DNA of 50,330 bases, taken from Bryobacterales bacterium (GTDB taxonomy: Bacteria > Acidobacteriota > Terriglobia > Bryobacterales > Bryobacteraceae). The notes under the pieces are model-generated. The model searched no databases. It was not told the DNA's origin and was given only the letters and a program-made list of their open reading frames with translations. Below, piece after piece: positions 19,199-37,920 of this stretch (positions are counted from its first letter, which is position 1; every line of letters begins with the position of its first letter). Location of the stretch: contig JADZCI010000207.1 of the NCBI GenBank assembly GCA_020851655.1, forward strand, positions 1 to 50,330, given 5' to 3'. The position numbers and the translations under genes were made by a program.

Positions 19199-20932
19199 AT
19201 GATGCGTTCTTCCCTGGCCGGCTTCCTCTGTACGCTTGGCGCCTCGGCGCTGCTTTCCGGGTGCCGCCAGCAGCCCGCGCCTGCCTCGATCTCCGGCTTC
19301 GTCGACAAGTACTATGACGCTTTGTTTGACTGGAGCCCTTCGGCCGGCACCTCGGTGGGATTCCATCAATACGATGGGAAGCTGGAGAATCTTTCCGCTC
19401 CGGCATTCGCCGCCCGGATTGCCACGCTGAAGACCCTGCTGGCGGAGGCAAAGGGATTGCGCGCGGCGAAGCTGACTGACCAGGATGACATCGATCTCAC
19501 GGTCCTCGAGAATGCGATTCAGGCCGAGTTGCTGGACCTGGAATCGCTACAGTCGTGGCGGCATAATCCCATCGGTTATGTCAGCGGTCCAGGCAACGCG
19601 GTGGACCTGATCATGAAGCGCGCCTTCGCTCCGGCGAAAGACCGTTTGCCGGCGGTGACGGCGAGGTTAAGCGCCACTCCCGCCATGATAGCGGCGATGA
19701 AGGAAAACGTCGCCAACCCTCCCAAGGAATTCACCAGCCTGGCGATTCGAGTGGCCAGCGGATCATCCGGTTTCCTGGAGAAGGAAGTGGCGGCATGGGC
19801 CAGAGACGCGGCCGCCGGAGACGCGCAAGCGCTGGCGGAGTTTGAGAAGGCGAACAACGCCGCGGTGGCGGCCATGAAGGAAGCGGCGGCGTGGCTCAGG
19901 AATGATTTGCTGCCGCGATCGAAGGGCGCCTATGCCATCGGCGCCGAGGCGTTTGCCAGGAAGTTGCAACTCGAGGAGATGGTGGACCTGCCGCTGGAGC
20001 AGGTGCTGGCCATCGGCCAGGCGAATCTCGACAAGGACTATAGGGATTTTGTCGATACCGCAAGAAAGATCAATCCGAGATCGACACCCGCCGAGGTGAT
20101 GAAGTCTTTGGAAGCTGAACATCCGGCCGAGGCTGATCTGCTGCCAGCCGTCCGCCGCACGATTGAAGGCGCCCGGGCATTTCTGGTCGAACACAAGATT
20201 GTCACGATCCCCTCCGAGGTGCGGCCGAAAATCGAAGAGACGCCGCCTTATGCGCGCGTGGGAACTTTCGCTTCCATGGACACGCCGGGGCCGTACGAAT
20301 CGAAAGCGACCGAGGCGTTCTACTACGTCACGCCGCCGGAAAAGGACTGGGATGCCAGACATAAGGAGGAGCACCTCCGGTTGTTCAACAAGTACGTGCT
20401 GGACATGATCACGATTCATGAGGCATATCCCGGTCACTACTTGCAGTTCCTCTGGAGTAAGCAGTTTCCGACCAAGACCCGCAAGCTGAGCGGCGCCGCC
20501 TCGAACATCGAAGGTTGGGCGCACTATGGCGAACAAATGATGATCGAGCAGGGCTTTGGCGGAGGCGACCCCAAGATCCGCCTGGCGCAACTCGCGGAAG
20601 CTTTGCTGCGCGATTGCCGGTATGTGGCCGGCATCATGCTCCACACGCGGGGCTGGACGGTGGAGCAAGGGCAGAAGCTTTTCATCGAGAAGGGATTTCA
20701 ACAGCCAGCCAACGCATACGAAGAAGCGCGGCGCGGGGCCTACAATCCGACCTACCTGTACTACACACTTGGCAAGCTGATGATCTACAAGCTTCGCGCG
20801 GACTACCAACAGGCCAAGGGCGCCGGATACTCCCTACAGGGTTTCCACGACGAATTCGTACGGCAAGGTCCCCTGCCCCTCAAGCTGATGCGCAGGGTGA
20901 TGCTTCCGGGCAATTCGGGGCCGTTGCTGTGA
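19199..20932 (+). CDS. DUF885 family lipoprotein, probable metallopeptidase
   Basis: The protein has 577 residues. A signal peptide with a good lipobox (ALLSGC, Cys22) marks it as a lipoprotein. The DUF885 family covers most of the length. The key motif HEAYPGHYLQ (near residue 405) resembles the zinc-binding HExxH of metallopeptidases with a spaced third histidine, and SNIEGWAHYGEQ (near residue 435) should supply a further ligand. Members are often annotated as peptidases, but substrates are poorly known. Two ATG codons in a row begin the gene; the spacing from the foldase gene is 18 bases, so they are probably co-transcribed. It could trim peptides at the cell surface, which is inference. 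Confidence 0.87.
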   Translation: MMRSSLAGFLCTLGASALLSGCRQQPAPASISGFVDKYYDALFDWSPSAGTSVGFHQYDGKLENLSAPAFAARIATLKTLLAEAKGLRAAKLTDQDDIDLTVLENAIQAELLDLESLQSWRHNPIGYVSGPGNAVDLIMKRAFAPAKDRLPAVTARLSATPAMIAAMKENVANPPKEFTSLAIRVASGSSGFLEKEVAAWARDAAAGDAQALAEFEKANNAAVAAMKEAAAWLRNDLLPRSKGAYAIGAEAFARKLQLEEMVDLPLEQVLAIGQANLDKDYRDFVDTARKINPRSTPAEVMKSLEAEHPAEADLLPAVRRTIEGARAFLVEHKIVTIPSEVRPKIEETPPYARVGTFASMDTPGPYESKATEAFYYVTPPEKDWDARHKEEHLRLFNKYVLDMITIHEAYPGHYLQFLWSKQFPTKTRKLSGAASNIEGWAHYGEQMMIEQGFGGGDPKIRLAQLAEALLRDCRYVAGIMLHTRGWTVEQGQKLFIEKGFQQPANAYEEARRGAYNPTYLYYTLGKLMIYKLRADYQQAKGAGYSLQGFHDEFVRQGPLPLKLMRRVMLPGNSGPLL

Positions 20933-20993: not shown

Positions 20994-21023
20994 GGAGGCG
21001 TCTCTATGTCTCCGCTCACATGA
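20994..21023 (+). promoter_or_regulatory. Five-codon leader ORF with strong ribosome site, coupled to the kinase
   Basis: GGAGG (20994-20998) is followed seven bases later by ATG (21006), then TCT CCG CTC ACA and TGA (21021-21023). The encoded peptide is MSPLT. Its stop overlaps the kinase ATG at 21020 as ATGA. The kinase start has no ribosome site of its own at normal distance, so the ribosome may enter through the leader frame and re-initiate. A TATCCT box lies upstream at 20973-20978. Confidence 0.55.
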
Positions 21024-23674
21024 CCGGCGCTTTATTCGGCCACTTTCGAATCCTCGAGAAACTCGGCGAGGGCGGCATGGGTCAAGTCTACAAGGCCCAG
21101 GACCTGAACCTCGACCGGTTTGTCGCGGTCAAAATTCTCCGTTCCGACGCCACCAAAGATGCCGTCCGGCGGCGGAGATTCGAACTCGAAGCCAAGACCG
21201 CCTCGTCCCTCCAACACCCGAACATCGTCTCCATCTACGACATTGGATGGGAAAACGATGTCGAGTACATCGTCATGGAGTACCTGGGCGGAAAGACTCT
21301 GGATGCGGTGATCTCGGGCAAGCCGCTGCCGCCCGAGCGCGCGCTGCGAATCGCCGAACAGATTGCCGGCGCCGTTTCAAAGGCGCACGGAGCAGGCATC
21401 GTTCATCGCGACTTGAAGCCTTCCAACGTGATGGTGCTGCCCGAAGACTTCATCAAGATCCTCGACTTCGGTCTCGCGAAGTTGACCGAGACGGGCGATT
21501 CGAGCGAGGACACCATCACGCACACCCAGTTGAACCTGACGACCGAGGGCATGGTTATTGGGACCGCCGCCTACATGTCTCCCGAGCAGGTGGAAGGAAG
21601 AAAGATCGACGCGCGGAGCGACATTTTCTCCTTCGGCGCGGTTCTTTACGAGATGCTGAGGGGGAAGCGCGCCTTCGCATCCACCAGTCAGATTTCCACT
21701 TTGTCCGCCGTCCTGACTCGCGAGCCGGAAGTTCTCTCTGACGTGCCGGACGAGATTCAGCGGGTCGTCCGGCGCTGCCTGAGAAAAGAAGCGGATCAGC
21801 GCTTCCAGAGCATGGCGGACGTAAGGATGGCCATTGGCGACCTGCGCGACGACCTGCGGACCGGGAGCCTGAGCAGTTCCGCCAGGATGGCGGCCGCGCG
21901 CGCCACGCGCCGATTCCGCTTGTGGTGGCTACTGGCTGTCGTTGGAGCGCTGGCGGTGACCGCCGGGGTTTTATCGCTGTGGCAGGGGCTGTCCACCTCA
22001 CCTCCGCTCCATCCTGTGCAACTCACATCGTATTCGGGAGTTGAAGACAGCCCAACGCTGTCGCCTGACGGAAGCCAGTTCGCTTTTCAGTGGAGCGGTC
22101 CGAACGGCGACAACATCGACATATACGTCCGCTTGGTTGACGGTGGCGACCCACTCAGACTGACCAACGACCTGGGGGACGACACGGTTCCCGCGTGGTC
22201 TCCCGACGGACGTTGGATCGCATACCGTCACATCGAGCAAGGCAGGGCCGATATCCGGCTGGTTTCGCCATTGGGAGGAAGGCCGCGAAAGCTGCTTGAC
22301 CTGGTGGGCGCCACGTTTGGCGCGAGCCACTGCTGGGCGCCCGATAGCCGCCGGCTTGTCGTTTCGATGCCGGTCGACGGCCGGGAGAGCCAGCAACTGC
22401 TGCGAGTTGACGCGCAGACCGGAGAACTGCTGGTCATCGGATATCCGGAACCGGCGGCCAACCAGATGGACTTGAGCTGCGCAGTTTCGCCCGATGGACA
22501 GAAGATTGCCTTTCTCCGGATGGAGGATCGCCAGTCCGTCCGTCTGTTGCTGGTTCCATTCCAGGGCGGATGGGTGACCGACACGGGCGTGATGGTTGCC
22601 AGCGCGACAGGCCTGGCTTGGACTCCGGACGGACTCAGCGTCCTGATCGGTACGCGCATAGAGGGTCTGGACGCGTTGTGGCGAATCCCGATGACCAAGG
22701 GATTTCCCGCCCGCCCGGTGCGGCTGACCGGCGCCGGCGACGGCGGTTCTTCGCCGGCCTTCGCTCCGCCTGGATCCAGACACGGCGCGCGTCTCATATA
22801 CACCCGTGCGCAGTTGGACATTGCCGTGGTGGCGGCGGAATTTGGACCTGACGGCCGGTTCGCCGCCGAGCCGCGAAGAGTGGTCTCCGAGACGGCGCGA
22901 ATGCAGGAGGCCCAGGTCTCGCCCGACGGCAAGCAGATTGCCGTTGTTTCCGAACGCTCCGGGCCTCAGCAGGTCTGGCTTTTCGAAGAAGGCTCGGTGG
23001 ACGCGCGGCAGGTTTCGTGGTTTACCAACATGGCGCCCGGAGCGCTGCGGTGGGCGCCCAATTCACGGGACCTGGTGTTCGATGTGCTCGGCTCCGGCAA
23101 GTCTGATTTGTACACCATGTCGAGCGTGGGCGGCAGCCCACGGCGGCTCACCATGGATTCGTCCAACGAGGCGAGGCCATCGTTTTCCGCCGATGGGAAG
23201 TTTGTGTATTTCCGGAGCGACAAGAGCGGATCGCGGGAACTGTGGAAGATGCCGTTTGCGGGCGGGGAGTGGATTCAGGTCACCAGGGACGGCGGATTTG
23301 AAGCTCAAGAGACAGTCGATGGCAGAAACCTGATTTACATCAAGGGCGCCAACGGTGTGGGCCTGTATGAACGGCCCGTGCCGGGAGGACCCGGCCAGCC
23401 CATTGCGCCGGCGGCCCGCGCCGGACTTTGGAGTTACGCCAATGGGTGGGTGGCGTGGTTCGACGTTCCCGATGGCACTTGGGGAATGTACAAGGCGAAA
23501 GTGGTAAAGGTGATGAACCTGGCGACGCGCGACACGTGGGTAGCGGGGAGCGTTACATCGCGCCTGGCGGTAAACTCCTCCCAGGTTTCGTTATCGCCGG
23601 ATCATAAGAGGTTCTACTTCGTGCGGCGCGCCGAACCGCAAGCGGACCTGGTCCTGGTCGACAACTTCCGCTAG
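21020..23674 (+). CDS. Transmembrane Ser/Thr protein kinase with TolB-type propeller repeats
   Basis: The protein has 884 residues. The kinase domain (about 8-280) is complete: GEGGMGQVY (16-24), K38 in AVKIL, E57, HRDLKPSN (129-136), DFG (149-151) and MSPEQ. One membrane helix follows (about 301-321). The rest, placed outside the membrane, is a series of TolB/WD40-like PD40 repeats with the SPDGxxIA pattern, for example PTLSPDGSQFAF, PAWSPDGRWIAY, AQVSPDGKQIAV and PSFSADGKFVYF; I count about nine. Such domains form beta propellers that could sense proteins or glycans. The start fits the family, where the kinase begins a few residues in. Translation may depend on the five-codon leader. The TonB receptor gene follows after 94 bases, suggesting a linked role. 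Confidence 0.93.
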   Translation: MTGALFGHFRILEKLGEGGMGQVYKAQDLNLDRFVAVKILRSDATKDAVRRRRFELEAKTASSLQHPNIVSIYDIGWENDVEYIVMEYLGGKTLDAVISGKPLPPERALRIAEQIAGAVSKAHGAGIVHRDLKPSNVMVLPEDFIKILDFGLAKLTETGDSSEDTITHTQLNLTTEGMVIGTAAYMSPEQVEGRKIDARSDIFSFGAVLYEMLRGKRAFASTSQISTLSAVLTREPEVLSDVPDEIQRVVRRCLRKEADQRFQSMADVRMAIGDLRDDLRTGSLSSSARMAAARATRRFRLWWLLAVVGALAVTAGVLSLWQGLSTSPPLHPVQLTSYSGVEDSPTLSPDGSQFAFQWSGPNGDNIDIYVRLVDGGDPLRLTNDLGDDTVPAWSPDGRWIAYRHIEQGRADIRLVSPLGGRPRKLLDLVGATFGASHCWAPDSRRLVVSMPVDGRESQQLLRVDAQTGELLVIGYPEPAANQMDLSCAVSPDGQKIAFLRMEDRQSVRLLLVPFQGGWVTDTGVMVASATGLAWTPDGLSVLIGTRIEGLDALWRIPMTKGFPARPVRLTGAGDGGSSPAFAPPGSRHGARLIYTRAQLDIAVVAAEFGPDGRFAAEPRRVVSETARMQEAQVSPDGKQIAVVSERSGPQQVWLFEEGSVDARQVSWFTNMAPGALRWAPNSRDLVFDVLGSGKSDLYTMSSVGGSPRRLTMDSSNEARPSFSADGKFVYFRSDKSGSRELWKMPFAGGEWIQVTRDGGFEAQETVDGRNLIYIKGANGVGLYERPVPGGPGQPIAPAARAGLWSYANGWVAWFDVPDGTWGMYKAKVVKVMNLATRDTWVAGSVTSRLAVNSSQVSLSPDHKRFYFVRRAEPQADLVLVDNFR

Positions 23675-23768
23675 TAGATTCCAATTTAAAGAGCAATCCC
23701 TCTTGCGGACTTTGACTTGCGGGTATAGAGTGGTACCCATCGATTTCAACGTTAGGGGGCGAAGTCCC

Positions 23769-26700
23769 ATGGGTTCCCGGTTCAAGACATCTGTCCTGTG
23801 CCTGTTCACGGCCGTCACGGCGTGCGGCCAAACCTTTTTTGGATCTGTCGTTGGTTCCGTGACAGATCAATCGAATGCGGCCATTACAGCGGCGAGCGTT
23901 TCGTTGATCAATCTGGGCACGGGAGACCGGCGCACCTCTCAGACTGATTCGTCCGGAGGCTACCAGTTCGTCAATCTCGTGCCGGGACAATACCGGCTCG
24001 AAGTCGAAAAGACGGGTTTCCGGCGTTTTACCCGCGAGCCGATTACGGTCGAAGTTCAGAGCGCGGTTCGCATCGATGTTCCGATGCAGGTTGGCGATGT
24101 GAACCAGACCGTGGAAGTGACCTCGCAAACACCGTTACTGCAAACCGAAGACGCCTCGCTCGGCAAAGTGGTGGAGGCGCGCAAGGTATTGGAGATGCCG
24201 CTGAACGGCCGCAATGTGTTTGGACTGGTGGCGTTGGTGCCGGGCGTGGTTCCCGGCGGGCAGTCGGGCACAACACCCACCGGAACCAACCCGTTCGCCT
24301 GGGGCAACTACCAGATTGGCGGCGGGCAGGCGAACCAGAGCGCGACCTACATCGACGGCGCCCCGGTCAACGCGGCGTACGTGAACCTGACGGCGCTGGT
24401 GCCCACGCAGGACGCAATCCAGGAGTTCAGGGTGCAGACCAACAACCTGGGCCCCGAGTTCGGCCGGTTGGCCGGCGGCGCTATCAACCTCACAACCAAG
24501 TCCGGGACCAACGATTTCCACGGCAGCGCCTACGAGTTTCTCCGGAATCGCGAACTGAACGCGAATACTTTCTTCAACAACCGCGCGCGAGTCCAGCGCC
24601 CGGCCTTTTCGCAGAACCAATACGGCGTCAACATCGGTGGGCCGATCATCCACGACAAGACGTTCTTCTTTGCGGGGTGGGAAGGGTTCCGCTTGAGGCA
24701 GGGAGCATCGTACGTCTACACAGTTCCCACCGCGGCGATGCGCGCGGGCGACTTCTCCAATGTTCGCAACGGCGCCGGCAATGTGATTCCCATCTATGAC
24801 CCGCTCACCACCTGCGGACGCTTTGGCAATGCCGCTTGCGGACGCGATGCAAACGGAAACGAGATCATCACGCGAACGCAGTTTCCCGGCAATGTCATTC
24901 CGCAGAACCGGATTGATCCGGCTTCGAAGATTCTGAGCCAGTACTGGGCCTTGCCGAATGGACCGGGCAACCAGTTCACCGCCGTGAATAACTACACGGC
25001 GAACGCCAGCGTGGGTGGCGATAATGACCAGGTCAACGCGCGATTGGATCATACATTCTCGGAGCGAAACCGCCTGTTCCTCCGGTATACCTACTGGCAG
25101 AACCTGAACCTGCCTATCGATCCGTACAAGACCAAGACGTGCGTGGACCGGTGCACGGAGACGTTCAACACCAACCAGGGAGTGATTGGAGACACGTTTA
25201 ATCTGACTCCGACGTTCATCGTCGATCTTCGCGCCTCTTACCTGCGGTTCAGCTATGACCGGACGTCGCTGACCGCGGGTTACGATCTAACCCAGTTGGG
25301 CTGGCCCGCATCGCTCAACAACCAGGTAATCTTCCGCGTCGTCCCGCAACCGGTTGTGACCGGCTACAACGGGGTGTGGAGCACCAATGGCACGGGGAGC
25401 ACGATCATCGCGCGAAACGACGTCTACTCGATTACGCCGAGCGCAACCAAGATTTGGGGCCGTCACACGCTGAAGTTCGGCGGCGAGTTCCGGCGGTTGA
25501 CGCACAACTACTACCAGCAGAACAATCCTTCCGGCAGCTTCAACTTCGATTCCCTGCTGACGTCGTCAAACCCGTTCAATGCGGCCGGAACCGGCAACGG
25601 ATTCGCATCCTTCATGCTGGGCTACGGCTCGGGGGGCGGCGTTACCAACAACGCCCTTGTGGCGGGGCAGATGCTCTACCGCGCTTACTATGTTGGAGAC
25701 CAGTACCAGGCGACTTCACGGTTGACCGTCAACTTCGGCATCCGCATGGAGCAGATGGGGCCGTGGTCGGAACGATTCGACCGGATGATCGTGATGCTGC
25801 CGGGACTGCCGAGCGAGATCTCAGGCCCATCGGGGTTGAACCTGAAAGGCACCATTGGGCTTGTCAATTCGAAGGAGAGTCCGAGCCGGAACAACACGAA
25901 GATGGGCAACCTGTGGGCTCCGCGCTTCGGGTTGGCCTACCGTCTGGACAACAAGACGGTGATCCGCACCGGCTATGGGGTCTTCTGGCTGGGCAACGAC
26001 GTAGCGTTCGGTTTTGCGCCGAACGGCGATCCGGTGAACGCCTATTCCACGCCGTTTCTGGGAACGACGGATGGTTCTCTGACGCCGCGGGACACTCTGC
26101 GCGACCCGTTTCCGAGTGGGCTGACGGCGCCTCCGGGGCGAAGCCCGAACTTCCAGCAATTGTTCTGGGGGCAGGGAATCACCGCACCAGTGTGGGACGA
26201 GAAACACGCCTACGCGCAGCAATGGAATTTCGATGTGCAGCGGGAGATACCCGGCGGACTGGCGCTTTCGATCGCCTACGCCGGCTCCAAGGGTACGCAT
26301 TTGCCAGGGCCCAGCCAGCAATTGGATCAGCTTCCGCCGGAGTTCATGTCCTTGGGCAGCCGGTTGCAGCAGCAGGTTCCGAATCCGTTCTTCGGGCTGG
26401 TGAAACTCGGCGCGCTGGCGCAGCCGACGGTGGCCTACGGCCAACTGCTCAGGCCCTACCCGCATTACAACGGGTATGCGATGCAGAGTCCTCCTAACCG
26501 CAACTCGATTTATCATTCGGCGCAGCTCAACGTCGAAAAGCGGTTCGCCAAGGGTGGATCGATTGTGGCCGCGTATACGTGGTCGAAGCTCATCAGCGAC
26601 ACCGATACGCTGACCGGCTGGCTGGAGCCCGGCGGCGGCGCGGGCGGCGTTCAGAATAACTACAACATCCGCGCCGAGCGGTCGCTGGCGCTCTACGACA

Positions 26701-27254
26701 CCCCACACCGCCTGGTGGTGAGCTACATCGTGGACCTGCCCTTCGGCAAAGGCCGGAAGTTTGGTTCGGATGCTCCCGGCTTCGCCTCGCTGTTGATTTC
26801 CGGTTGGGGGGTGAACGGCGTCAGCACGTTCCAGTCGGGAAGCCCGATCAACCTTTCGACCGCGGTCAACACGTCCAACTCCTTCGGCGGCGGACAGCGG
26901 CCCAATTCCGCCGGTTCGAGCGCCAACATCGAGGGTCCGGCACAACAACGGCTGAGCCGGTGGTTTGACACCTCGAAGTTCACTCTGCCGGCGTCGTTCA
27001 GCTTCGGCAACGTGGCGCGCACGCTACCGGATGTCCGGTCCCACGGCATCGCGAATTACGACTTCACCCTGTTCAAAAACACGCAGATCACGGAGCGATT
27101 TGGGTTGCAGTTCAGGACCGAGGTTTTCAATCTCTTCAACCGGGTCCGCTTCGGGTATCCGGGGCGAGGGATGGGCAATCCGGACTTTGGTGTGATTGGC
27201 GGACAATTCAACGATCCGCGGCTGGTCCAATTCGCCTTGCGCCTGCTCTTTTGA
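23769..27254 (+). CDS. TonB-dependent receptor with carboxypeptidase-regulatory-like domain
   Basis: The protein has 1161 residues. A signal peptide (MGSRFKTSVLCLFTAVTACGQ) is followed by a carboxypeptidase-regulatory-like beta sandwich (about 23-105: GSVTDQSNAAITAASVSL, GGYQFVNLVPGQYRLEVEKTG as key strands), a plug region with EMPLNGRNVFGLVALVPGV, and a long beta barrel ending in LRLLF with a terminal aromatic residue. This is the large Oar-like receptor type that is expanded in acidobacteria and is thought to import oligosaccharides or peptides; the ligand is unknown. I chose ATG at 23769, preceded by AGGGGGCGA, over a TTG at 23703 that would put 22 non-signal residues in front. The CRTAC1 and TPR genes follow closely. 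A TATAGA box sits at 23724-23729. Confidence 0.93.
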   Translation: MGSRFKTSVLCLFTAVTACGQTFFGSVVGSVTDQSNAAITAASVSLINLGTGDRRTSQTDSSGGYQFVNLVPGQYRLEVEKTGFRRFTREPITVEVQSAVRIDVPMQVGDVNQTVEVTSQTPLLQTEDASLGKVVEARKVLEMPLNGRNVFGLVALVPGVVPGGQSGTTPTGTNPFAWGNYQIGGGQANQSATYIDGAPVNAAYVNLTALVPTQDAIQEFRVQTNNLGPEFGRLAGGAINLTTKSGTNDFHGSAYEFLRNRELNANTFFNNRARVQRPAFSQNQYGVNIGGPIIHDKTFFFAGWEGFRLRQGASYVYTVPTAAMRAGDFSNVRNGAGNVIPIYDPLTTCGRFGNAACGRDANGNEIITRTQFPGNVIPQNRIDPASKILSQYWALPNGPGNQFTAVNNYTANASVGGDNDQVNARLDHTFSERNRLFLRYTYWQNLNLPIDPYKTKTCVDRCTETFNTNQGVIGDTFNLTPTFIVDLRASYLRFSYDRTSLTAGYDLTQLGWPASLNNQVIFRVVPQPVVTGYNGVWSTNGTGSTIIARNDVYSITPSATKIWGRHTLKFGGEFRRLTHNYYQQNNPSGSFNFDSLLTSSNPFNAAGTGNGFASFMLGYGSGGGVTNNALVAGQMLYRAYYVGDQYQATSRLTVNFGIRMEQMGPWSERFDRMIVMLPGLPSEISGPSGLNLKGTIGLVNSKESPSRNNTKMGNLWAPRFGLAYRLDNKTVIRTGYGVFWLGNDVAFGFAPNGDPVNAYSTPFLGTTDGSLTPRDTLRDPFPSGLTAPPGRSPNFQQLFWGQGITAPVWDEKHAYAQQWNFDVQREIPGGLALSIAYAGSKGTHLPGPSQQLDQLPPEFMSLGSRLQQQVPNPFFGLVKLGALAQPTVAYGQLLRPYPHYNGYAMQSPPNRNSIYHSAQLNVEKRFAKGGSIVAAYTWSKLISDTDTLTGWLEPGGGAGGVQNNYNIRAERSLALYDTPHRLVVSYIVDLPFGKGRKFGSDAPGFASLLISGWGVNGVSTFQSGSPINLSTAVNTSNSFGGGQRPNSAGSSANIEGPAQQRLSRWFDTSKFTLPASFSFGNVARTLPDVRSHGIANYDFTLFKNTQITERFGLQFRTEVFNLFNRVRFGYPGRGMGNPDFGVIGGQFNDPRLVQFALRLLF

Positions 27255-27319: not shown

Positions 27320-28918
27320 ATGAGATCAATTACCATTCTGCTGGCTGCCGTCACGGGAGTTCTGGCGCCGGTGGCTCCCCCGGGGGTCGATTTTGTGCAG
27401 CGGAATTCGCCCACTTCCGAGAAATACCTGGTCGAAACGATGGGCGGTGGCGTTGCGCTTCTGGACTACAACAACGACGGGCGCCTGGACGTGTTTCTGG
27501 TGAACGGCGGCAAACTAAGGGAACCGCAAAAGACCCCGGCGGATTTCGGGCGGCGCGATCCCGCGTATTGGAACCGGCTCTACCGGCAGAATCGCGACGG
27601 CACATTCTCTGACGTGACCGCGGCGGCAGGGTTGTCGAAGACGGGAAACGGCTATGGAATGGGCGCCGCGACCGGTGATTTTGACAACGACGGATTCACC
27701 GATTTGTATCTCACCAACTTCGGGAACAACGAACTCTACCGCAACCTGGGTGACGGGACGTTCAAGGATGTGACCGACGAGGCGGGAGTAGCCGGCGGCG
27801 GGTGGTCTGTCTCGGCTGGATTTCTCGATTATGACAACGATGGGCGTCTGGACCTGTTTGTCAGCCGTTACCTCGACTGGGACCTGGAACAGAATGTGCA
27901 CTGTGGCACGCCGTTTTGGGCGTATTGCCGCCCGGACAAGTACGAGGGAGTTCCAAATCTCTTATTTCACAATGAGGGCGGCGGGAGGTTCCGCGATGTG
28001 AGCCGGAGTTCCGGGATCGGCGCCTTGAGAGGAAAAGGAATGGGTGTCGCCTTTAATGACGGCGACGGAGACGGAAGAACCGATATTTTCGTATCCAATG
28101 ACGGCATGGAACAGTACCTCTTCCGGAATCGGGGTGACGGCACATTTCAGGAGCAAGCGGTCGAGGCGGGCGCGGCATACGGCGAAGACGGAAAGACTTT
28201 TGCCGGCATGGGTGCGGTGTTTGAAGACTACGATAACGATGGACGGCCGGATATCGCGGTAACCAATCTGGCGCTGGAAAAGTACGCTCTTTTCCGGAAC
28301 GGCGGAGGTGGACGATTTACGTATGCGAGCCTTGCCTCCGGTCTGGCGAGTCTCTCGGCGCGCAGTTCCGGTTGGGGTGTCCTGCTGGCCGATTTCGATA
28401 ACGACGGATGGAAGGACTTGTTCGTCGCGCAAAGCCACGTGCTCGACAACGTGGAACGAATCAACGCCAACCTCAGGTACCGGGAGCCACCAGCGCTCTA
28501 TCTCAACCGGTCAGGAAAATTCCAGCGGGCCGATTTGGGGACTTTGCCCGCGGTTGCGGGCCGCGGCGCCGCGGTGGGCGACCTGAATGGAGACGGCGCG
28601 TTGGACGTGGTGATGCAGGTCCTGGGAGGGCGCCCGCTCGTGCTGTCGGGCATGCCCAACGGGAATCACTGGCTGGAGGTCAAACTGGTGGGAACCAAGA
28701 GCAACCGCGATGGCGCCGGCGCAAAGATCCGGGTGGGAAACCAATCTGCGCATGCCTCGTCCGCGGGGAGTTACCTGTCGGCGAGCGACATTCGTGTGCA
28801 TTTCGGACTCGGTAACATGACCCGAGCTCAGGTCGAAGTTGTCTGGCCTGGCGGCGGGATGCAGACTGTTGACGTTACCGTGGTGGACCGCGTTGTGACG
28901 GTGAAGGAACCGCTGTGA
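27320..28918 (+). CDS. CRTAC1 family protein (FG-GAP/VCBS repeats plus ASPIC/UnbV)
   Basis: The protein has 532 residues. A short hydrophobic start (MRSITILLAAVTGVLA) suggests export. Seven calcium-binding-type DxDxDG loops are spread along the chain (DYNNDGRLD, DFDNDGFTD, DYDNDGRLD, DGDGDGRTD, DYDNDGRPD, DFDNDGWKD, DLNGDGALD), as in integrin-like FG-GAP propellers. The end (NHWLEVKLVGTKSNRDGAGAKIRV in part, then VHFGLG and VEVVWPGG) is the ASPIC/UnbV domain. The family is common outside cells of acidobacteria and planctomycetes, but its role is unclear; binding of glycans or proteins is assumed. The stop overlaps the start of the TPR gene (GTGA), so the two are coupled. A second paralog lies at 45093-46775. 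Confidence 0.92.
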   Translation: MRSITILLAAVTGVLAPVAPPGVDFVQRNSPTSEKYLVETMGGGVALLDYNNDGRLDVFLVNGGKLREPQKTPADFGRRDPAYWNRLYRQNRDGTFSDVTAAAGLSKTGNGYGMGAATGDFDNDGFTDLYLTNFGNNELYRNLGDGTFKDVTDEAGVAGGGWSVSAGFLDYDNDGRLDLFVSRYLDWDLEQNVHCGTPFWAYCRPDKYEGVPNLLFHNEGGGRFRDVSRSSGIGALRGKGMGVAFNDGDGDGRTDIFVSNDGMEQYLFRNRGDGTFQEQAVEAGAAYGEDGKTFAGMGAVFEDYDNDGRPDIAVTNLALEKYALFRNGGGGRFTYASLASGLASLSARSSGWGVLLADFDNDGWKDLFVAQSHVLDNVERINANLRYREPPALYLNRSGKFQRADLGTLPAVAGRGAAVGDLNGDGALDVVMQVLGGRPLVLSGMPNGNHWLEVKLVGTKSNRDGAGAKIRVGNQSAHASSAGSYLSASDIRVHFGLGNMTRAQVEVVWPGGGMQTVDVTVVDRVVTVKEPL

Positions 28919-30738: not shown

Positions 30739-32631
30739 ATGAAACGCCTGACATGGCTTAGTTTTCTCTGCCTGGGCGCCTTGGCCCAAACCGATAGCCG
30801 GGGAGTCACCGCACACCTAAACCCACCACTAAACACGCCGGATGTCGTGGCGAGCGAGCTTCGGTCGTACCTGATTCGGAAAGCTCCGCCGCTGCCGGTT
30901 GCGCCCAACCGGGCCGGCTGGGCGGAGGAGTCTCAACGTGTGCGGAAGCAGTTTCTGGATCAGATCGTCTTCCACGGTTGGCCCGCCGAATGGGTCACCG
31001 CACCGCCGAAGTTCGAGGACCTGGGGCTGATTCCCACTACCGGCCGGGGCTACCGCATGCGAAAGCTGCGGTACGAGATTGTGCCCGGCTTCTGGTCGGC
31101 GGCAATCCTGTATGAACCGGAGACTCTGAGCGGCAAAATGCCGGCGATGTTGAACGTCAACGGCCACGTCGGCGCTCCGGGCAAGAGCGTTGAGTACAAG
31201 CAGAAGCGCTGCATCCAGCAGGCGCGCATGGGAATGCTGGCGCTGAACCTGGAGTGGCTTTGGTATGGCGAGCTTTCCGCGAAAGAGAACGCCCACTGGA
31301 ACGCGGCGCATCTTGACCTCGCTGGCGCGTCCGGGTTGGGAATCTTCTACCTGGCCATGCGAAAGGGACTGGACTATCTCGCCGCGCACCCCAATGCCGA
31401 CCCTGCGCGGTTGGGGGTGACCGGCTTGTCCGGGGGAGGCTGGCAAACGATCATCCTCAGCTCGCTTGACGAGCGGGTGACGCTGTCCACGCCGGTTGCC
31501 GGATACTCGGCGTTCCGGGCGCGAGTCGAGAGATGGCGCGACACGGGGGATTACGAGCAGAACGCAACCGACATGTTGACGGTCGCCGATTATCCCCGGC
31601 TGACGGCGCTGCGGGCGCCGCGGCCGACCCTGCTGGTCTACAACGCCGAAGACGACTGCTGCTTCCGGGCGCCCCTTGTCAAACCCGATATCTTTGATGC
31701 GGTGAGGCCCGTATTCGCGTCACTGGGCGCTGCCGATGCATTTGAATGGCACGAAAACACCGACCCGTCCGATCACAATTATCAGATGGACAACCGGATG
31801 GCGTTCTACCGGTTTGCCGCGCGGCACTTCCGGCTGAAGCCAGTGGAAGCGGAAGAGCCCGCCCCGCTGCTGAGTTACCGGGAATCGACTGCCGGACTGC
31901 CGCGGGATAACCTGACGATTCTTGGTGTCGCCAGGCAACTGGCCGCGCGCAGAGCGCCAGGCGGCGATTTGCGATCGATCTTGCGCTACAAGCCGTCCGC
32001 TATCACGCGCGTGTGGCCTCTGCGTAACAGCAAGAGCAAAGGATTGGAGACGTGCTCCTACCGCATCGAGTTTGACAATGGCTTGACGGCGACAGCCGTC
32101 TGGCTGCGCGCCTTGCTGGCTCCGCGAGACGCCCGCGCGACTTTGATTCTGAGCGATAAAGGCAAAGCCGGCGCGGGGGCGGAGGTTTCCGGCCGGGTCA
32201 ACCGCGGCGAGAACGTTTTTGCCATCGATCTGTTCCTGCACGGTGATTCCGCTCCCCGGGATCCCGGCCCGTCTCACTACGCGCAGATGTTCACCGCGGC
32301 TGGCGAAAGGCCGCTGGCTTTGCAGGCGGCGCAACTGACGGCTCTCGCCGGCTGGGCCAGACAAACTTCAGGCGCTAAGGAAGTGCGCGTTGAGACCTCC
32401 GGCGTGCGGACAGAGATGGCGGCCTTGACCGCCGCCGCGCTTTCGCCCGGCATGTTCACCGAGGCGATCCTGAGTCAAGCGCGTGGATCTTTGCGGAACC
32501 TGCTGGATGTGCCGGTGGACTACACCGAGGCGCCTGAGCCATTTGTGCTCGATCTGTACAAGCACTTTGACATCGATTCCCTGAGCGCCGCGGCAAAGCC
32601 GACGCGCGTGGTGGTGGAACCGGTTGAGTGA
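30739..32631 (+). CDS. Exported alpha/beta-hydrolase, acetyl-xylan-esterase-like
   Basis: The protein has 630 residues. A signal peptide (MKRLTWLSFLCLGALAQ) is followed by an alpha/beta-hydrolase fold. The nucleophile elbow is GLSGGGWQT with Ser231; an acid is likely in YNAEDDCCF (D305/D306), and His346 in PSDHNYQMDN completes a triad. The fold resembles the acetyl xylan esterase group. A second part (about 380-630) looks like a decayed or divergent repeat of the same fold: it has beta-alpha segments (ARATLILSDKGKAG, NVFAIDLFLHGD) but no clear second nucleophile elbow. It probably removes acyl groups from polysaccharides outside the cytoplasm. It lies 12 bases after the carbonic anhydrase gene and its stop abuts the stop of the convergent nitrilase gene. 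Confidence 0.85.
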   Translation: MKRLTWLSFLCLGALAQTDSRGVTAHLNPPLNTPDVVASELRSYLIRKAPPLPVAPNRAGWAEESQRVRKQFLDQIVFHGWPAEWVTAPPKFEDLGLIPTTGRGYRMRKLRYEIVPGFWSAAILYEPETLSGKMPAMLNVNGHVGAPGKSVEYKQKRCIQQARMGMLALNLEWLWYGELSAKENAHWNAAHLDLAGASGLGIFYLAMRKGLDYLAAHPNADPARLGVTGLSGGGWQTIILSSLDERVTLSTPVAGYSAFRARVERWRDTGDYEQNATDMLTVADYPRLTALRAPRPTLLVYNAEDDCCFRAPLVKPDIFDAVRPVFASLGAADAFEWHENTDPSDHNYQMDNRMAFYRFAARHFRLKPVEAEEPAPLLSYRESTAGLPRDNLTILGVARQLAARRAPGGDLRSILRYKPSAITRVWPLRNSKSKGLETCSYRIEFDNGLTATAVWLRALLAPRDARATLILSDKGKAGAGAEVSGRVNRGENVFAIDLFLHGDSAPRDPGPSHYAQMFTAAGERPLALQAAQLTALAGWARQTSGAKEVRVETSGVRTEMAALTAAALSPGMFTEAILSQARGSLRNLLDVPVDYTEAPEPFVLDLYKHFDIDSLSAAAKPTRVVVEPVE

Positions 32632-33867
32632 TCAGCGGCGGGACGGTGGGTCGGTGGCGATGTCGCCCCGCAGTTCGCGGAAGAACCTCGCGCGCATGTC
32701 TCCAAGCCACGGATCGGCATAGCGCTTGCTTAAGTCGATTGTCGCGGTGGCGACGGCGCCGTCTTCTTCCGTACGCGCCAGCGTCTCACCGTCCGGGTCG
32801 ATGACGAGCGACGGAAAGTCATAGCCGGACGAGGCCAGAAAGAGGTGGTTCTCGATGGCGCGCGCTTTTGCCAGTGTCTCGTTGCCGCCCCAGATGGGCA
32901 TAAGGATCAGTTCCGCGCCCCGCAGCGCCAAGCCGCGCGCGGGGTCCGGGTATTGGACGTCCCAGCAGATCATCATGCCAACCGTGCCGAAGTCCGTCTG
33001 AAAGACCGGGAAGCCGGAACCGGGAGTGATGCCGCCCTCGAACTCTTCGCGAGGGATGTAGATCTTGCGATACTTGCCGGCATACTGGCCGGCGCGGCCG
33101 ATGAGGACGGCCGTGTTGTAGATGGCCGTGCCGTCGCGCTCGTAGACTCCAGCGACTACCCAGGCGTTTTTGCGCCGCGCCAGTTCGCCCAACCGCTGTG
33201 TGGTTGGTCCGGGGATTGCCTCCGCCACATCGGCGTACTTCTTGCCGGTTCCCACAACCGTGACGCCTTCCGGCAGAAGGATGATGTCGGAGCCGGCGGG
33301 CACTCGCGCGTCAGCCGTCTCAATGAAGCGGGCAACCGGGTCGGCGCCACGCGGGTGCAGGCGGATTGTGGCGATGCGGGCGACACGCGGCTTGGGGGCG
33401 CCTGCCGGCTTGAACTCCACGTCCTTCCAGCGGATGGCGGCATTCGGCGCGTTTTGCAGGATCAGTTGCACATTGACCGACGAAGCTTTTTCCGGCGACG
33501 GCGCCGTGAGCGACGCTACCCGCCAATCGCCTTCGGTTGAAACCTGCCACACATAGTCGGGCTGTCCCGCGCGTTTTCCGGCGGCGGTTTGCCAGTCGAG
33601 GCGGACGGGCGTTTGAAGTGGTTCGTAGGTCAACCCGGTCGCCCGGTAGCGGAGTTCGAGGCGGTACCAGTGCCCTGGGACGACCCCGGAAAAGGACCGC
33701 TCCCACCCGCCAAACACGGCGGGGTTGCCTTTCCCTTCGGCGATCAGTTCATCGCCCTGCCGGGATAGCTTGGGAGTGATCTCGTCTCGAGGCGACCAGG
33801 CGTGCCAATCCTGGGCGCAGAGGCTGTGTGCGGACACTAGAATTGCCGGCCAGATCAGGGAGCGCAT
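32632..33867 (-). CDS. Exported nitrilase-superfamily amidohydrolase with N-terminal beta domain
   Basis: The protein has 411 residues. A signal peptide (MRSLIWPAILVSAHSLCA) leads into a beta-rich domain (about 20-155) with ligand-binding-type strands (HWYRLELRYRAT, VNVQLILQNAPNAAIRWKDVEF in part), then a carbon-nitrogen hydrolase domain (about 160-400). The catalytic triad can be read as E200 in LLPEGV, K268 in KYRKIYIP and C301 in MICWDVQYP. The superfamily splits nitriles or amides and usually works in the cytoplasm, so export with an added front domain is unusual. It lies 11 bases after the M14 peptidase gene, as the third gene of a GH127-led operon. The substrate is unknown; an amide released from glycoprotein or cell-wall material is possible. 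Confidence 0.88.
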   Translation of the reverse strand: MRSLIWPAILVSAHSLCAQDWHAWSPRDEITPKLSRQGDELIAEGKGNPAVFGGWERSFSGVVPGHWYRLELRYRATGLTYEPLQTPVRLDWQTAAGKRAGQPDYVWQVSTEGDWRVASLTAPSPEKASSVNVQLILQNAPNAAIRWKDVEFKPAGAPKPRVARIATIRLHPRGADPVARFIETADARVPAGSDIILLPEGVTVVGTGKKYADVAEAIPGPTTQRLGELARRKNAWVVAGVYERDGTAIYNTAVLIGRAGQYAGKYRKIYIPREEFEGGITPGSGFPVFQTDFGTVGMMICWDVQYPDPARGLALRGAELILMPIWGGNETLAKARAIENHLFLASSGYDFPSLVIDPDGETLARTEEDGAVATATIDLSKRYADPWLGDMRARFFRELRGDIATDPPSRR

Positions 33868-33878
33868 CTGCTATGAGC

Positions 33879-35084
33879 TTACCGGATCGTCACGGCGGCG
33901 GCCAGTGTTTTCACGAGTTCTTCGCCGAAACGGAGACGGTCTGGAACTTCGGGCAGGTGGCCGAGCTTAGGATTCAGTGAGACCCGTTGCTCCATGATGA
34001 AAGCCGGAACGCCAAAGTCGCGCGACAAGCCTTGCGAAACGGTCATGCGGCCCGGCTTTCCCGCGGTGGTCGTGGGCGCGGCGTAGAAGAGAGGACGCGT
34101 TGGCGCAAACGTCGTGTCCTTGGAAAGCAGCCGGAACACCCGTTCGGCGAGCACGCGGTGAGCGGACTCATCCGGAGGTCCCTCCAGGTACTCCGCGGTC
34201 TCGGTGTTGTGCAGCGAGAGAAACAGGTCGATGGTGTGGCCGGAGTCGAGCCATGCCTTGATGGCGCTTCTTTGTGCGGCGATCTCCGGCATCTTTGCCG
34301 CGTCCACGGCGTCCCAGTTGCGGTTCAGATCGAAGCCATTCACGTTGTAGCGGACACCGCCGCGGGCAACGCCATCGGGATCGCAGAGCGGGAAGATTTT
34401 CCAGTTCACTTGCTCGCGAAGCCGGGCCGATTCGGGTGTGCGCGCCAGTAGAAACCGCGCCGCGCCCTCGCCGGCCCACGAGCTGCCCGTTTCCCAACTA
34501 TGCTGGCGGAACATCAGCCAGATGGTCGCTTTGCCCTTACGCGGCGCCGGTATGGTCCACAGAGGCATGTCCCGTCCGCCGGCGGTCTGGCCTATGACCT
34601 CTTCGCGAAAATCCGGCTGCGCGGCCAACTCGGAACGTAGCCGGTGCAGCGTTGCGTTCGTATAAGGCGGGCAGTGCGCGATCCAAAACTGCGCCGAGGC
34701 GGGTTTGATGCGCAGGCGGAGTTTGGGCTCCGAGGCGTCGTATTCGAAGTTTTCGACGTGCTTCCATTCTTTCCGGTCGTAACTGATGACCGGAGGTGTG
34801 TCGGCGGTGATCGCGCCTCGATTGGGTTTGTAGTTGTACTCGCCCGGCAGATCGACGATGTCGAAGATCAATTCCGCCGCGGGCGCCCCGTCCACCCGGA
34901 AGTAATACCAGTTGGCTTGCCGGTTGCGCCCATCCTGGTCCGCCTCGCCCTTGGCGCCGAGGCGATAGTGGTTGTTGGCTACCTTCTCGATCCGGCCAAG
35001 GCTGCCGCCCTCGAAAGTGGTGCGGACATCCATGGCGAGCAGCGAAATGCCCCAGAGAAGCCATGACAGCGTTCGGCGGACCAT
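33879..35084 (-). CDS. Exported M14 family zinc carboxypeptidase
   Basis: The protein has 401 residues. A signal peptide (MVRRTLSWLLWGISLLA) is followed by a beta-sandwich domain (about 20-140) and an M14 domain. Zinc ligands can be read as H195 and E198 in RQHSWETG and H292 in LSLHNTE; DLNRNW (252-257) forms the substrate-binding loop and Glu365 in AFIMEQRV is the likely catalytic base. The N-terminal beta domain before M14 recalls the cytosolic carboxypeptidase (CCP/AGBL) group, here in an exported form. It removes C-terminal residues from peptides. The gene begins four bases after the GH127 gene ends, so they form one operon together with the nitrilase. Confidence 0.9.
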   Translation of the reverse strand: MVRRTLSWLLWGISLLAMDVRTTFEGGSLGRIEKVANNHYRLGAKGEADQDGRNRQANWYYFRVDGAPAAELIFDIVDLPGEYNYKPNRGAITADTPPVISYDRKEWKHVENFEYDASEPKLRLRIKPASAQFWIAHCPPYTNATLHRLRSELAAQPDFREEVIGQTAGGRDMPLWTIPAPRKGKATIWLMFRQHSWETGSSWAGEGAARFLLARTPESARLREQVNWKIFPLCDPDGVARGGVRYNVNGFDLNRNWDAVDAAKMPEIAAQRSAIKAWLDSGHTIDLFLSLHNTETAEYLEGPPDESAHRVLAERVFRLLSKDTTFAPTRPLFYAAPTTTAGKPGRMTVSQGLSRDFGVPAFIMEQRVSLNPKLGHLPEVPDRLRFGEELVKTLAAAVTIR

Positions 35085-35088
35085 GGCG

Positions 35089-37488
35089 TCACTTCACCTT
35101 CCATTCCTGGAGTCCGGCCGACCACCGCGGCTGCATCGTGACTTCAAGCCGCAGGGCGGTCGTCGTAACCGGAGTGAAGGTCACCCGGTTGTAGCGGTCT
35201 TTCTCCACACCGTACGGAACCCCAGCCGCTACGGGCTTCCATTCGGTACCCTCCTTGTACAAGACACGCCACGAGGCCGGAACCCGGACCTGCCCGTGTC
35301 CCGTGTCATCGAACCAATACACCTGAGCCTCGGCGACTTTTGTGGGATGGGCGAACGCGTACTCCACCCATTCCGTGGCGCCCTTGGTGGGCCACCAATC
35401 GAAGTAGGACGATCCATCCGCCGATGATTCTGGCTCCTCGCCGTCATTAATCATCCTGGGGTTTTTGCGGCCTGACGTCGTCACTTGCGCCGTGGTGGCC
35501 AGAGTAGGGAAGGGCGCCGGGCGCGCCGAGGCTTCACTCGCCGGAATCCACACCACCATCTGTCCGCGTCCGCGGTTGGCCCAGGCATAATACGGAATCG
35601 CGGTGAACTCCACCGGCTTCTTGCCCGCTGCGCCGTGCTCGTCATAGGCCAGCGCAATGGCCCGGCTTCGAACCACCATCACCCCGTTGAGGAGATTAGG
35701 CCGGAACTCGGCGGTGAGCGGGGCGCCGGCGGGCAGCACGAGGTTGCGAACCCTGCCATCAGGGAACTCGGGCCACTCGGCCGCATAGACGATGGGACCG
35801 CGTTGCAGCGCGATTCTGCCGCGATCCGCCACAACCTCGGCGGCGGCGCCGACCCGTCGCACAGGCATTGGCAAGTTCAGATCCACCACGTCTCCGGCCT
35901 TCCAGCGGCGGGTGATGGCTGCGTAGCCGGCGTTCATTTCCAGGGCGGCCGGGGCGCCATTAACCTTCAGGGTCACTTGGCCCGAATCGCCACCTTCGAA
36001 GCGGTAGAGGCGGCTCGGTACCGGCTGGTTCCGCGCCCATCCGGGGATCCTCAGGTTCAGCGTCCAACTCGCCGCCTCATCCGGATCGAGCTTAAGCCTG
36101 ATCTGGCCTTCCCACGGATAGCGCGTCTCCTGGACGATGTTCACAGACCGGCCGTTGTCGAGCTTGACGCTCGCGGTGGATGCCATGTAGAGGTTGACCC
36201 AGAGCCCGCCGCCCCTTTGCGCATAGACGTATCCCGGAATCGAGGGCATGAAGCGGGAAATGTTGCTGGGACAGCAGGCCACGCCGAACCAGGGGCTGCG
36301 GGCGTGCTGCCCGTTCGATTCCAGCGGATTGGGGTAGAAGAAGGTCTTGCCGTCGAGGGCCACACCCGAAATCAGGCCGTTGTAGAGGGTCCGCTCCATC
36401 ACGTCGATGTATTTCGAGTCGGCGTGCAGGAGGAAGAGACGGTAGTTCCACAGATCGTTTCCGATAGCGGCGCACGTCTCGTTGTAGGCGGTCATGTTGG
36501 GCAGTTCGTAGCCGGCTCCGAATGCCTCGCCGGAACTGGTGGCGCCGATTCCGCCGGTGATGTAGAGTTTCTGGCCCGCGGTGTTCTCCCAGATCCGGTC
36601 AATGGCCCTGACATAGGTTTCATCGCCGGTGAGCGCGGCGACATCGGCCATGCCCGAGTACATGTAGGTGGCCCGAACGGCGTGGCCCACGGCTTCGGTC
36701 TGTTCGGTCACCTTCATGTGGGACTGGTTGTAGGTGCGGCCGCTTCCGGGCCGTCCATCGGGACCGCGCGCGTCAAGCATGAACTTGGCCAGGTCCAGGT
36801 ACTGCTGGTTGCCGGTCGCGCGGTACATCTTGGCCAATCCCATCTCTGTAATCTGGTGTCCCGGCCAGATGGATTGCTTGCCGGGACCGAAGGTGCGGAC
36901 TAACAAGTCCGCGGTGCGGGTTGCGATGTCCAGAAGGTTCCGTTTGCCGGTGGCCTGGTAGTAAGCGACGGCCGCTTCGTAGAGATGGCCCAGGTTGTAG
37001 AGTTCGTGGCTGTCAACGGCTTCTAACTGCCAGCGCTGCGAGCCCGCCCACGGATGCGGATGAGCCGGATCGATAGTCCTCGTCGTGTAGAGATACCCAT
37101 CCGGCTCCTGGGCTGCCGCAATCTCGCCTATGAGGTTATCGACATAGGCTTCCAGCTTGGGGTCGGAGTGAACGTGCATCGAGTACGCCGCGCCTTCGAT
37201 GACCTTGTACACGTCCGTGTCGTCGAACGGGTAGCCGGGCGGCTTCCGGTTCTCGAGCGGTTCGCCACGCAGGACTTTTGCGGCACGGATGAAATTGTCC
37301 ACCCGTCCCGTCTCTTCGTCCTTTTGGAAGGCGAACGGGATGGTTGCGGTGCGATTGATCTCGATCCGCGGAGCCCAGAAAGAGTCTGTGACGCGAACCG
37401 CCGTGAAAGGGACGGGCTTGACCGGGTAGTCTCGCGGCTGCGCCCACAGCGCCGAGGCGAGTGCAAAGAAGATCACGGAACGCCCCAT
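35089..37488 (-). CDS. GH127 family beta-L-arabinofuranosidase-like enzyme, exported
   Basis: The protein has 799 residues. A signal peptide (MGRSVIFFALASALWAQ) precedes an (alpha/alpha)6 barrel of the GH127 type. The residues known from Bifidobacterium HypBA1 (acid/base Glu322; zinc ligands Glu338, Cys340, Cys417, Cys418, with Cys417 as nucleophile) have clear counterparts: E321 in SGEAFGAG, E337 and C339 in AYNETCA, and C405-C406 in FGVACCPSN. HypBA1 releases arabinofuranose from hydroxyproline-linked chains of plant extensin. The last 130 residues or so look like an F5/8 type C binding module (VEYAFAHPTKVAEAQVYWFDD). A TACAAT box lies 14 bases before the ATG. It leads the operon with M14 and nitrilase genes. 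Arabinose specificity is inferred from the family. Confidence 0.92.
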   Translation of the reverse strand: MGRSVIFFALASALWAQPRDYPVKPVPFTAVRVTDSFWAPRIEINRTATIPFAFQKDEETGRVDNFIRAAKVLRGEPLENRKPPGYPFDDTDVYKVIEGAAYSMHVHSDPKLEAYVDNLIGEIAAAQEPDGYLYTTRTIDPAHPHPWAGSQRWQLEAVDSHELYNLGHLYEAAVAYYQATGKRNLLDIATRTADLLVRTFGPGKQSIWPGHQITEMGLAKMYRATGNQQYLDLAKFMLDARGPDGRPGSGRTYNQSHMKVTEQTEAVGHAVRATYMYSGMADVAALTGDETYVRAIDRIWENTAGQKLYITGGIGATSSGEAFGAGYELPNMTAYNETCAAIGNDLWNYRLFLLHADSKYIDVMERTLYNGLISGVALDGKTFFYPNPLESNGQHARSPWFGVACCPSNISRFMPSIPGYVYAQRGGGLWVNLYMASTASVKLDNGRSVNIVQETRYPWEGQIRLKLDPDEAASWTLNLRIPGWARNQPVPSRLYRFEGGDSGQVTLKVNGAPAALEMNAGYAAITRRWKAGDVVDLNLPMPVRRVGAAAEVVADRGRIALQRGPIVYAAEWPEFPDGRVRNLVLPAGAPLTAEFRPNLLNGVMVVRSRAIALAYDEHGAAGKKPVEFTAIPYYAWANRGRGQMVVWIPASEASARPAPFPTLATTAQVTTSGRKNPRMINDGEEPESSADGSSYFDWWPTKGATEWVEYAFAHPTKVAEAQVYWFDDTGHGQVRVPASWRVLYKEGTEWKPVAAGVPYGVEKDRYNRVTFTPVTTTALRLEVTMQPRWSAGLQEWKVK

Positions 37489-37530: not shown

Positions 37531-37845
37531 CTAAGTTACGGTGACGCGGATGTGTTTCCGCCGCTCACGCCATTCTTCCTGGGCGAACATCCTCGGTCCC
37601 ATGTCGATGAGACGGGGCAGCATGTGAAATACGGACACCTGGTTCCACGGCTCGCCGTCGCGGGTTGAATAACCCCGGCTGTTGAGGTCCTGCGCAATAT
37701 TGGATAGCCGCTTATCGGCGACGATGCCTTCCATCATGGCGAGCAGGACGGCAATCTCGCCGGGATTCTCCTCCAGGTACCGGCAATCCTGTGAAATTCT
37801 CAGCCCATAAGGGATCTCTTCGCGGTGAGGTGTGTTGTCAGGCAT
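37531..37845 (-). CDS. Small protein with a serine-recombinase-type Recombinase domain
   Basis: The protein has 104 residues. Residues about 40-85 (MEGIVADKRLSNIAQDLNSRGYSTRD in part, then PWNQVSVFHMLPRLIDMGPRMF) look like the Recombinase domain (PF07508), the winged-helix part that follows the catalytic domain in large serine recombinases. There is no catalytic serine domain before it and no zinc ribbon after it. I chose ATG at 37845, with AGGAG nine bases upstream, over an in-frame start at 37878. It may be a free-standing DNA-binding protein or a remnant. The full, well-started frame argues against simple decay. It sits between the MFS gene and the GH127 operon, on the same strand. Confidence 0.7.
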   Translation of the reverse strand: MPDNTPHREEIPYGLRISQDCRYLEENPGEIAVLLAMMEGIVADKRLSNIAQDLNSRGYSTRDGEPWNQVSVFHMLPRLIDMGPRMFAQEEWRERRKHIRVTVT

Positions 37846-37920
37846 GCCAAAGCGCTCCTGTCGCGGAGTAGCGAGCAATCCTGGGGCCGCGGCTGGCGGC
37901 TGAATCTAAAGGGCTGATAT

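Follow-up and report, generated by a model that had tools for sequence, protein, structure and literature searches.

We analyzed a 50,330-nucleotide stretch of DNA from a soil acidobacterium, a Bryobacterales bacterium (GenBank assembly GCA_020851655.1, contig JADZCI010000207.1, positions 1 to 50,330; here called the window) and, within it, three minus-strand genes that encode a glycoside hydrolase of family GH127 (35089..37488), an M14 metallopeptidase-like protein (33879..35084), and a nitrilase-superfamily amidase (32632..33867). This three-gene order was seen in the window genome and in none of the relatives examined, and the best reading of the trio is that of a mostly ordinary unit of transcription of local occurrence. 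We favor, with somewhat better than even confidence, the view that the GH127 protein is an arabinofuranosidase of a clade associated with GH146 enzymes and S9 peptidases and that in the window genome it newly stands beside two general hydrolases, the M14 protein and the amidase. The GH127 protein would be an exported, cysteine-type enzyme that frees terminal beta-L-arabinofuranose from plant arabinogalactan-type glycans or glycoproteins. Its clade is patchy across the Acidobacteriota, where a DPP-IV-like S9 peptidase and an arabinofuranosidase of family GH146 recur as its neighbors, and in the window genome it would have come to stand ahead of the M14 and amidase genes instead. These two would act as general scavenging hydrolases and not as obligate partners of GH127, with the trio probably transcribed together.

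Distribution of the three-gene order in relatives

A first set of 61 genomes held the M14 gene in 19, the amidase gene in 27, and the GH127 gene in 26, under cutoffs that differ among the three. The family sample comprised 200 genomes, in which the close GH127 clade was counted at an E value of 1e-150 or better; 85 genomes carried M14, 104 the amidase, and 37 close-clade GH127, and all three genes occurred together in 8, the window genome included. The large genome runs scored the best few candidates per genome. Many of the relatives are fragmented assemblies, and their open reading frames (ORFs) came from a simple longest-ORF script; both flanks reached at least 2 kb in 20 of the 27 GH127 loci, 17 of the 22 and 18 of the 27 loci in two amidase sets (the latter named), and 22 of the 29 M14 loci.

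The original prediction had proposed a search for the same three-gene order in other acidobacteria, and the order was not found in the relatives examined. A second member of the trio was present in 0 of 27 GH127 loci, 0 of 49 amidase loci (22 plus 27), and 0 of 29 M14 loci, or 0 of 105 overall, a total with some overlap, since the 27 named amidase loci include places that also appear among the unnamed ones. Any two of the trio genes were adjacent in 0 of the 199 other family genomes and in the window genome alone, and in the relatives examined the M14 and amidase genes stood near no GH127 gene. No congener of the window genome was among the listed relatives.

The GH127 enzyme and its closest relatives

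The GH127 protein scored above the Pfam cutoffs for the catalytic, middle, and C-terminal domains of the family (375.7, 90.3, and 73.5 bits), and a further C-terminal match to F5_F8_type_C fell under its cutoff. As originally predicted, it retains the Glu/Cys set of HypBA1 from Bifidobacterium longum (3wkw), a member of the same family: Glu321, Glu337, Cys339, Cys405, and Cys406 are intact and align with the Cys nucleophile, the Glu acid/base, and the Zn-binding Cys3-Glu site. In HypBA1, Cys417 is the nucleophile and Glu322 the acid/base (PMC8106489). The NETC and CCP motifs occur in 26 of 26 GH127 orthologs and the longer GE[AS]F-ETC pattern in 25 (all except that of locus L123). Another GH127 structure, 5mqo, also carries the ETC and CCP motifs; since HypBA1 thus shares the set with other enzymes of the family, the sugar cannot be read from it.

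Among solved structures, the closest was 6ex6 (789 bits, over residues 20 to 657; "Six-hairpin glycosidase" in the PDB), followed by 4qjy (482), 5mqo (341.5), and HypBA1 3wkw (335). The window enzyme is like 6ex6 in its catalytic motifs and differs from it in an extra C-terminal F5/8-type (discoidin-like) module. We take 6ex6 to be the BT3674 GH127 enzyme of Bacteroides thetaiotaomicron; a literature search found no paper that names 6ex6 as a structure. BT3674 is described in PMC10850190 as a GH127 beta-L-arabinofuranosidase that works with exo-galactanases on larch arabinogalactan. Arabinogalactan enzymes were not seen in the examined part of the window.

We rejected an equivalence with HypBA1, given the 335 bits against 789 for 6ex6 and the contrast between an intracellular HypBA1 and a window protein with a signal peptide as judged by eye. 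HypBA1 cuts a released disaccharide, and the GH121 enzyme HypBA2 attacks the glycoprotein itself (PMC8106489, in the part concerned). Because HypBA1 acts inside the cell on the disaccharide that HypBA2 frees, the comparison drawn by the original prediction is loose; the special tie to HypBA1 falls away, and the proposed role in arabinose release is kept, now indicated by the neighborhoods of orthologs.

Neighbors of GH127 orthologs

A GH146-like gene adjoins the GH127 ortholog in 6 of 26 loci. The best solved matches of the one in L106 were 5opj (367 bits), 8k7y (206 bits), and 8k7x (204 bits), the latter two being beta-L-arabinofuranosidases; we take all three to be GH146 structures, in keeping with the subject of PMC10850190. 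The surroundings of L106 and L107 also hold genes for GH39, a sodium:solute symporter, a regulator of the LacI type, and a protein whose C-terminal domain is that of a fucose isomerase, and in L118 a GH51-type gene (with an alpha-L-arabinofuranosidase C-terminal domain) adjoins the ortholog. Together, these GH146, GH51, GH39, isomerase, and symporter neighbors point to arabinose release, and the window protein is likely an exported GH127 enzyme with this activity, perhaps acting on glycoprotein. The window genome contains four more genes that match the GH127 catalytic model, one of which shares 37% identity with the GH146-like gene found in L106.

A DPP-IV-like S9 peptidase, with DPP-IV 2ecf as its best solved match, was found in 8 of the 26 GH127 loci (L057, L061, L104, L105, L107, L114, L116, and, as a fragment, L106) and in none of the control loci (0/22 amidase and 0/29 M14). 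In L105, the GH146-like, GH127, S9, and DUF885 genes all lie on one strand. In the family sample, 19 of the 200 genomes carried GH127 together with the S9 ortholog (odds ratio, 5.8; P = 1e-5; 11 genera, P = 0.002), and in 9 of these 19 they shared a contig, eight pairs lying at most 6 kb apart and the ninth 20 kb apart. Across a phylum sample of 297 genomes, 20 had both (odds ratio, 11; P = 1.7e-9), with distances of at most 13 kb in 4. The literature on GH127, extensin, and peptidases and on clusters of beta-L-arabinofuranosidases with dipeptidyl peptidases, judged by titles and abstract openings, offered no description of a GH127-S9 cluster. The earlier expectation of a peptidase alongside GH127 holds for relatives, where such a partner recurs, but that partner is S9, and a GH127 link of the M14 or amidase genes is not supported.

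Other genes recur less clearly. Three of the 26 loci have a DUF885 gene close to GH127, and we did not accept these genes as encoding proven peptidases, since no HExxH motif was found in the three examined. The window itself carries a DUF885 gene (19199 to 20932, plus strand), whose distant homologs are those near GH127 in three relatives. A conserved Tat-type protein of 750 to 800 amino acids is next to or near GH127 in 6 of 26 loci (L058, L060, L061, L113, L115, and L120); it matched no Pfam or NCBIfam family except the Tat signal, the one member compared with PDB sequences matched none, and the predicted model was poor (predicted local distance difference test score [pLDDT], 47).

Several points weigh against the reading of the GH127 gene as an arabinofuranosidase gene of the GH146/S9-associated clade. 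We infer beta-L-arabinofuranose as the released sugar from the gene neighborhoods of orthologs alone, and the window genome has no close S9 ortholog, with no hit at an E value of 1e-120 (the single strong DPPIV_N gene there, at 30% identity, lies on a different contig), so the context seen in relatives may not carry over. The S9 query was picked after it had been sighted near GH127, so the contrast of 8/26 with 0/51 is not blind, and the genome-wide distances are the fairer measure. The Fisher tests used throughout take no account of phylogeny, and many of their rows are related. The sole NCBIfam match across the whole catalytic part of GH127 is the aceric acid hydrolase model NF049879 (471.2 bits; E = 5.5e-141; cutoff, 950), and, in the parts concerned, family members with other activities are described, namely the aceric acid hydrolase BT1003 (PMC10850190) and 3,6-anhydro-D-galactosidases (PMC5698469).

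These last points, with a Glu/Cys set that leaves the sugar unfixed, would suit an enzyme that frees aceric acid, 3,6-anhydro-galactose, or an unknown furanoside. We consider this unlikely. The window enzyme shares its architecture with the BT1003 type and is not a member of it, and we rejected the aceric acid assignment because the score lies so far under the cutoff; the 789 bits to 6ex6 against 341.5 to 5mqo and the GH146, GH51-type, and isomerase-type neighbors in relatives argue in the same direction. A broader proposal, also improbable in our estimate, is that plant glycoproteins rich in hydroxyproline or proline are the target of a cassette of Acidobacteriota, so far undescribed, that would "de-arabinosylate and digest" them. 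Exported GH127 and GH146 enzymes would strip beta-L-arabinofuranose, a co-located S9 peptidase would then shorten the proline-rich backbone, and the window would be a variant in which the M14 protein and the amidase replace S9.

The trio as a proposed dedicated operon

The original prediction regarded the trio as a dedicated operon whose products strip a single hydroxyproline-rich glycoprotein, such as extensin, of its arabinose, its C-terminal residues, and an amide. We consider this reading unlikely, and its specific scheme of three genes cutting three bonds of extensin is not supported. Its description of the locus was accurate: three minus-strand genes, with gaps of 4 bases (GH127/M14) and 11 bases (M14/amidase) and an esterase gene converging on them. 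The tight co-directional spacing, the apparent export of all three proteins, and their intact active sites are all in keeping with such an operon, and because relatives couple the same GH127 with another peptidase, a theme of sugar plus peptide is plausible. There is also an in silico precedent in the Latescibacteria, in which extensin degradation is assigned to GH127 for the arabinose and to separate peptidases for the backbone, a genome-level inference presented without a single linked operon in the text concerned (PMC4454575).

Set against this, the order recurs in none of the relatives examined, and same-strand gaps of up to about 20 bases are frequent among the predicted genes of the window, which makes the spacing of the trio weak evidence of joint function. 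The M14 gene occurs in 10 of 37 GH127 genomes and in 75 of 163 others (odds ratio, 0.43; P = 0.04), and the amidase gene in 14 of 37 and 90 of 163 (odds ratio, 0.49; P = 0.07); by genus, neither co-occurrence differs from chance. The HypBA2 (GH121) model matched only weakly in the genome (61.6 bits; cutoff, 3200). What speaks for the three proteins acting on one molecule comes down to adjacency in one genome.

The M14 peptidase and the amidase

The M14 protein combines M14_N (cytosolic-carboxypeptidase N-terminal) and Peptidase_M14 domains in Pfam, as do its solved relatives 4a37 and 4b6z, bacterial proteins of the cytosolic-carboxypeptidase-like type with which it also shares zinc and catalytic residues. 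It differs in having HSWE where these have HPGE and in its export, as judged by eye. His195, Glu198, Arg245, Asn254, Arg255, His292, and Glu365 are invariant in 20 of 20 aligned sequences (the window protein and those of 19 of the 29 loci), and the presence of the HxxE...H zinc site, the Arg, the Asn-Arg pair, and the catalytic Glu is consistent with membership in M14. NCBIfam gave a weak match to N-acetyl-ornithine deacetylase (18.5 bits; cutoff, 400).

The amidase matches CN_hydrolase in Pfam, and its Glu200-Lys268-Cys301 triad is invariant in 25 of 25 aligned sequences (the window protein and those of 24 of the 27 named loci). The AlphaFold model is confident (pLDDT, 92.6) except for the first 18 residues (pLDDT, <50). 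Archaeal amidases matched it best, with 6ypa as the top VIA match (Z, 32.1; root mean square deviation, 2.2; 241 residues aligned), and the matches covered residues 158 to 411. The fold and the Glu-Lys-Cys triad are those of the nitrilase-superfamily amidase PH0642 (6ypa/1j31/3ivz), to which the window protein adds an N-terminal beta-rich domain (residues ~20 to 155) and, by eye, an export signal.

Neither gene has a constant neighbor in relatives. The M14 ortholog abuts a Gfo/Idh/MocA-type dehydrogenase gene in L009, L032, L033, and L039, and such a gene comes after that of the amidase in the closest relatives (L077 and L124 to L126); these assignments come from a Pfam scan for L009, L039, and the homologous gene of L076 and from similarity for the others. 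These neighbors, weighed without the background frequency of such genes, could suggest that the two proteins form a functional pair in a shared but unlinked pathway and that GH127 merely landed alongside, as could their strong co-occurrence (both genes in 70 of the 200 genomes sampled from the family; odds ratio, 11; P = 7e-14; 35 of 76 genera; P = 1e-5), but we hold this to be very unlikely, since that co-occurrence, uncorrected for descent, may reflect lineages within the family, and the two genes are neighbors in no other genome, sharing a contig elsewhere in the family only in G008 and G168, where they lie megabases apart.

Layout and surroundings of the locus

All three trio proteins begin with a short, basic and then hydrophobic stretch. 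The signal peptides that the original prediction ascribed to them fit these N termini, an assessment made by eye alone. G+C content is uniform over the trio region. A 115-amino-acid recombinase-domain ORF with a TTG start (37531..37878, minus strand) lies 42 bases upstream of GH127 and may share its transcript.

On the other side, an apparently exported, alpha/beta-hydrolase esterase-like protein with a weak match to 6goc is encoded on the plus strand (30739..32631). Its end directly abuts the amidase stop at 32632, with 0 bases between them. We rejected it as a fourth member of the trio because it lies on the opposite strand and near 0 of 27 GH127 ortholog loci; a homolog is present once among the 29 M14 loci and once among the 27 named amidase loci. 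Two further plus-strand genes head toward the esterase, one for a large beta-barrel protein of the outer membrane that includes a carboxypeptidase-regulatory domain (23703 to 27254) and, after it, one for an ASPIC/UnbV FG-GAP protein (27320 to 28918). The gene at 21020 to 23674 (plus strand) encodes a serine/threonine kinase whose C terminus carries WD40-like PD40 repeats.

Implications

The trio shows that tight spacing in one genome does not make a pathway. The more useful by-product is the repeated link between GH127/GH146 enzymes and a DPP-IV-like peptidase across the Acidobacteriota, which makes the turnover of plant structural glycoproteins in soil directly testable.

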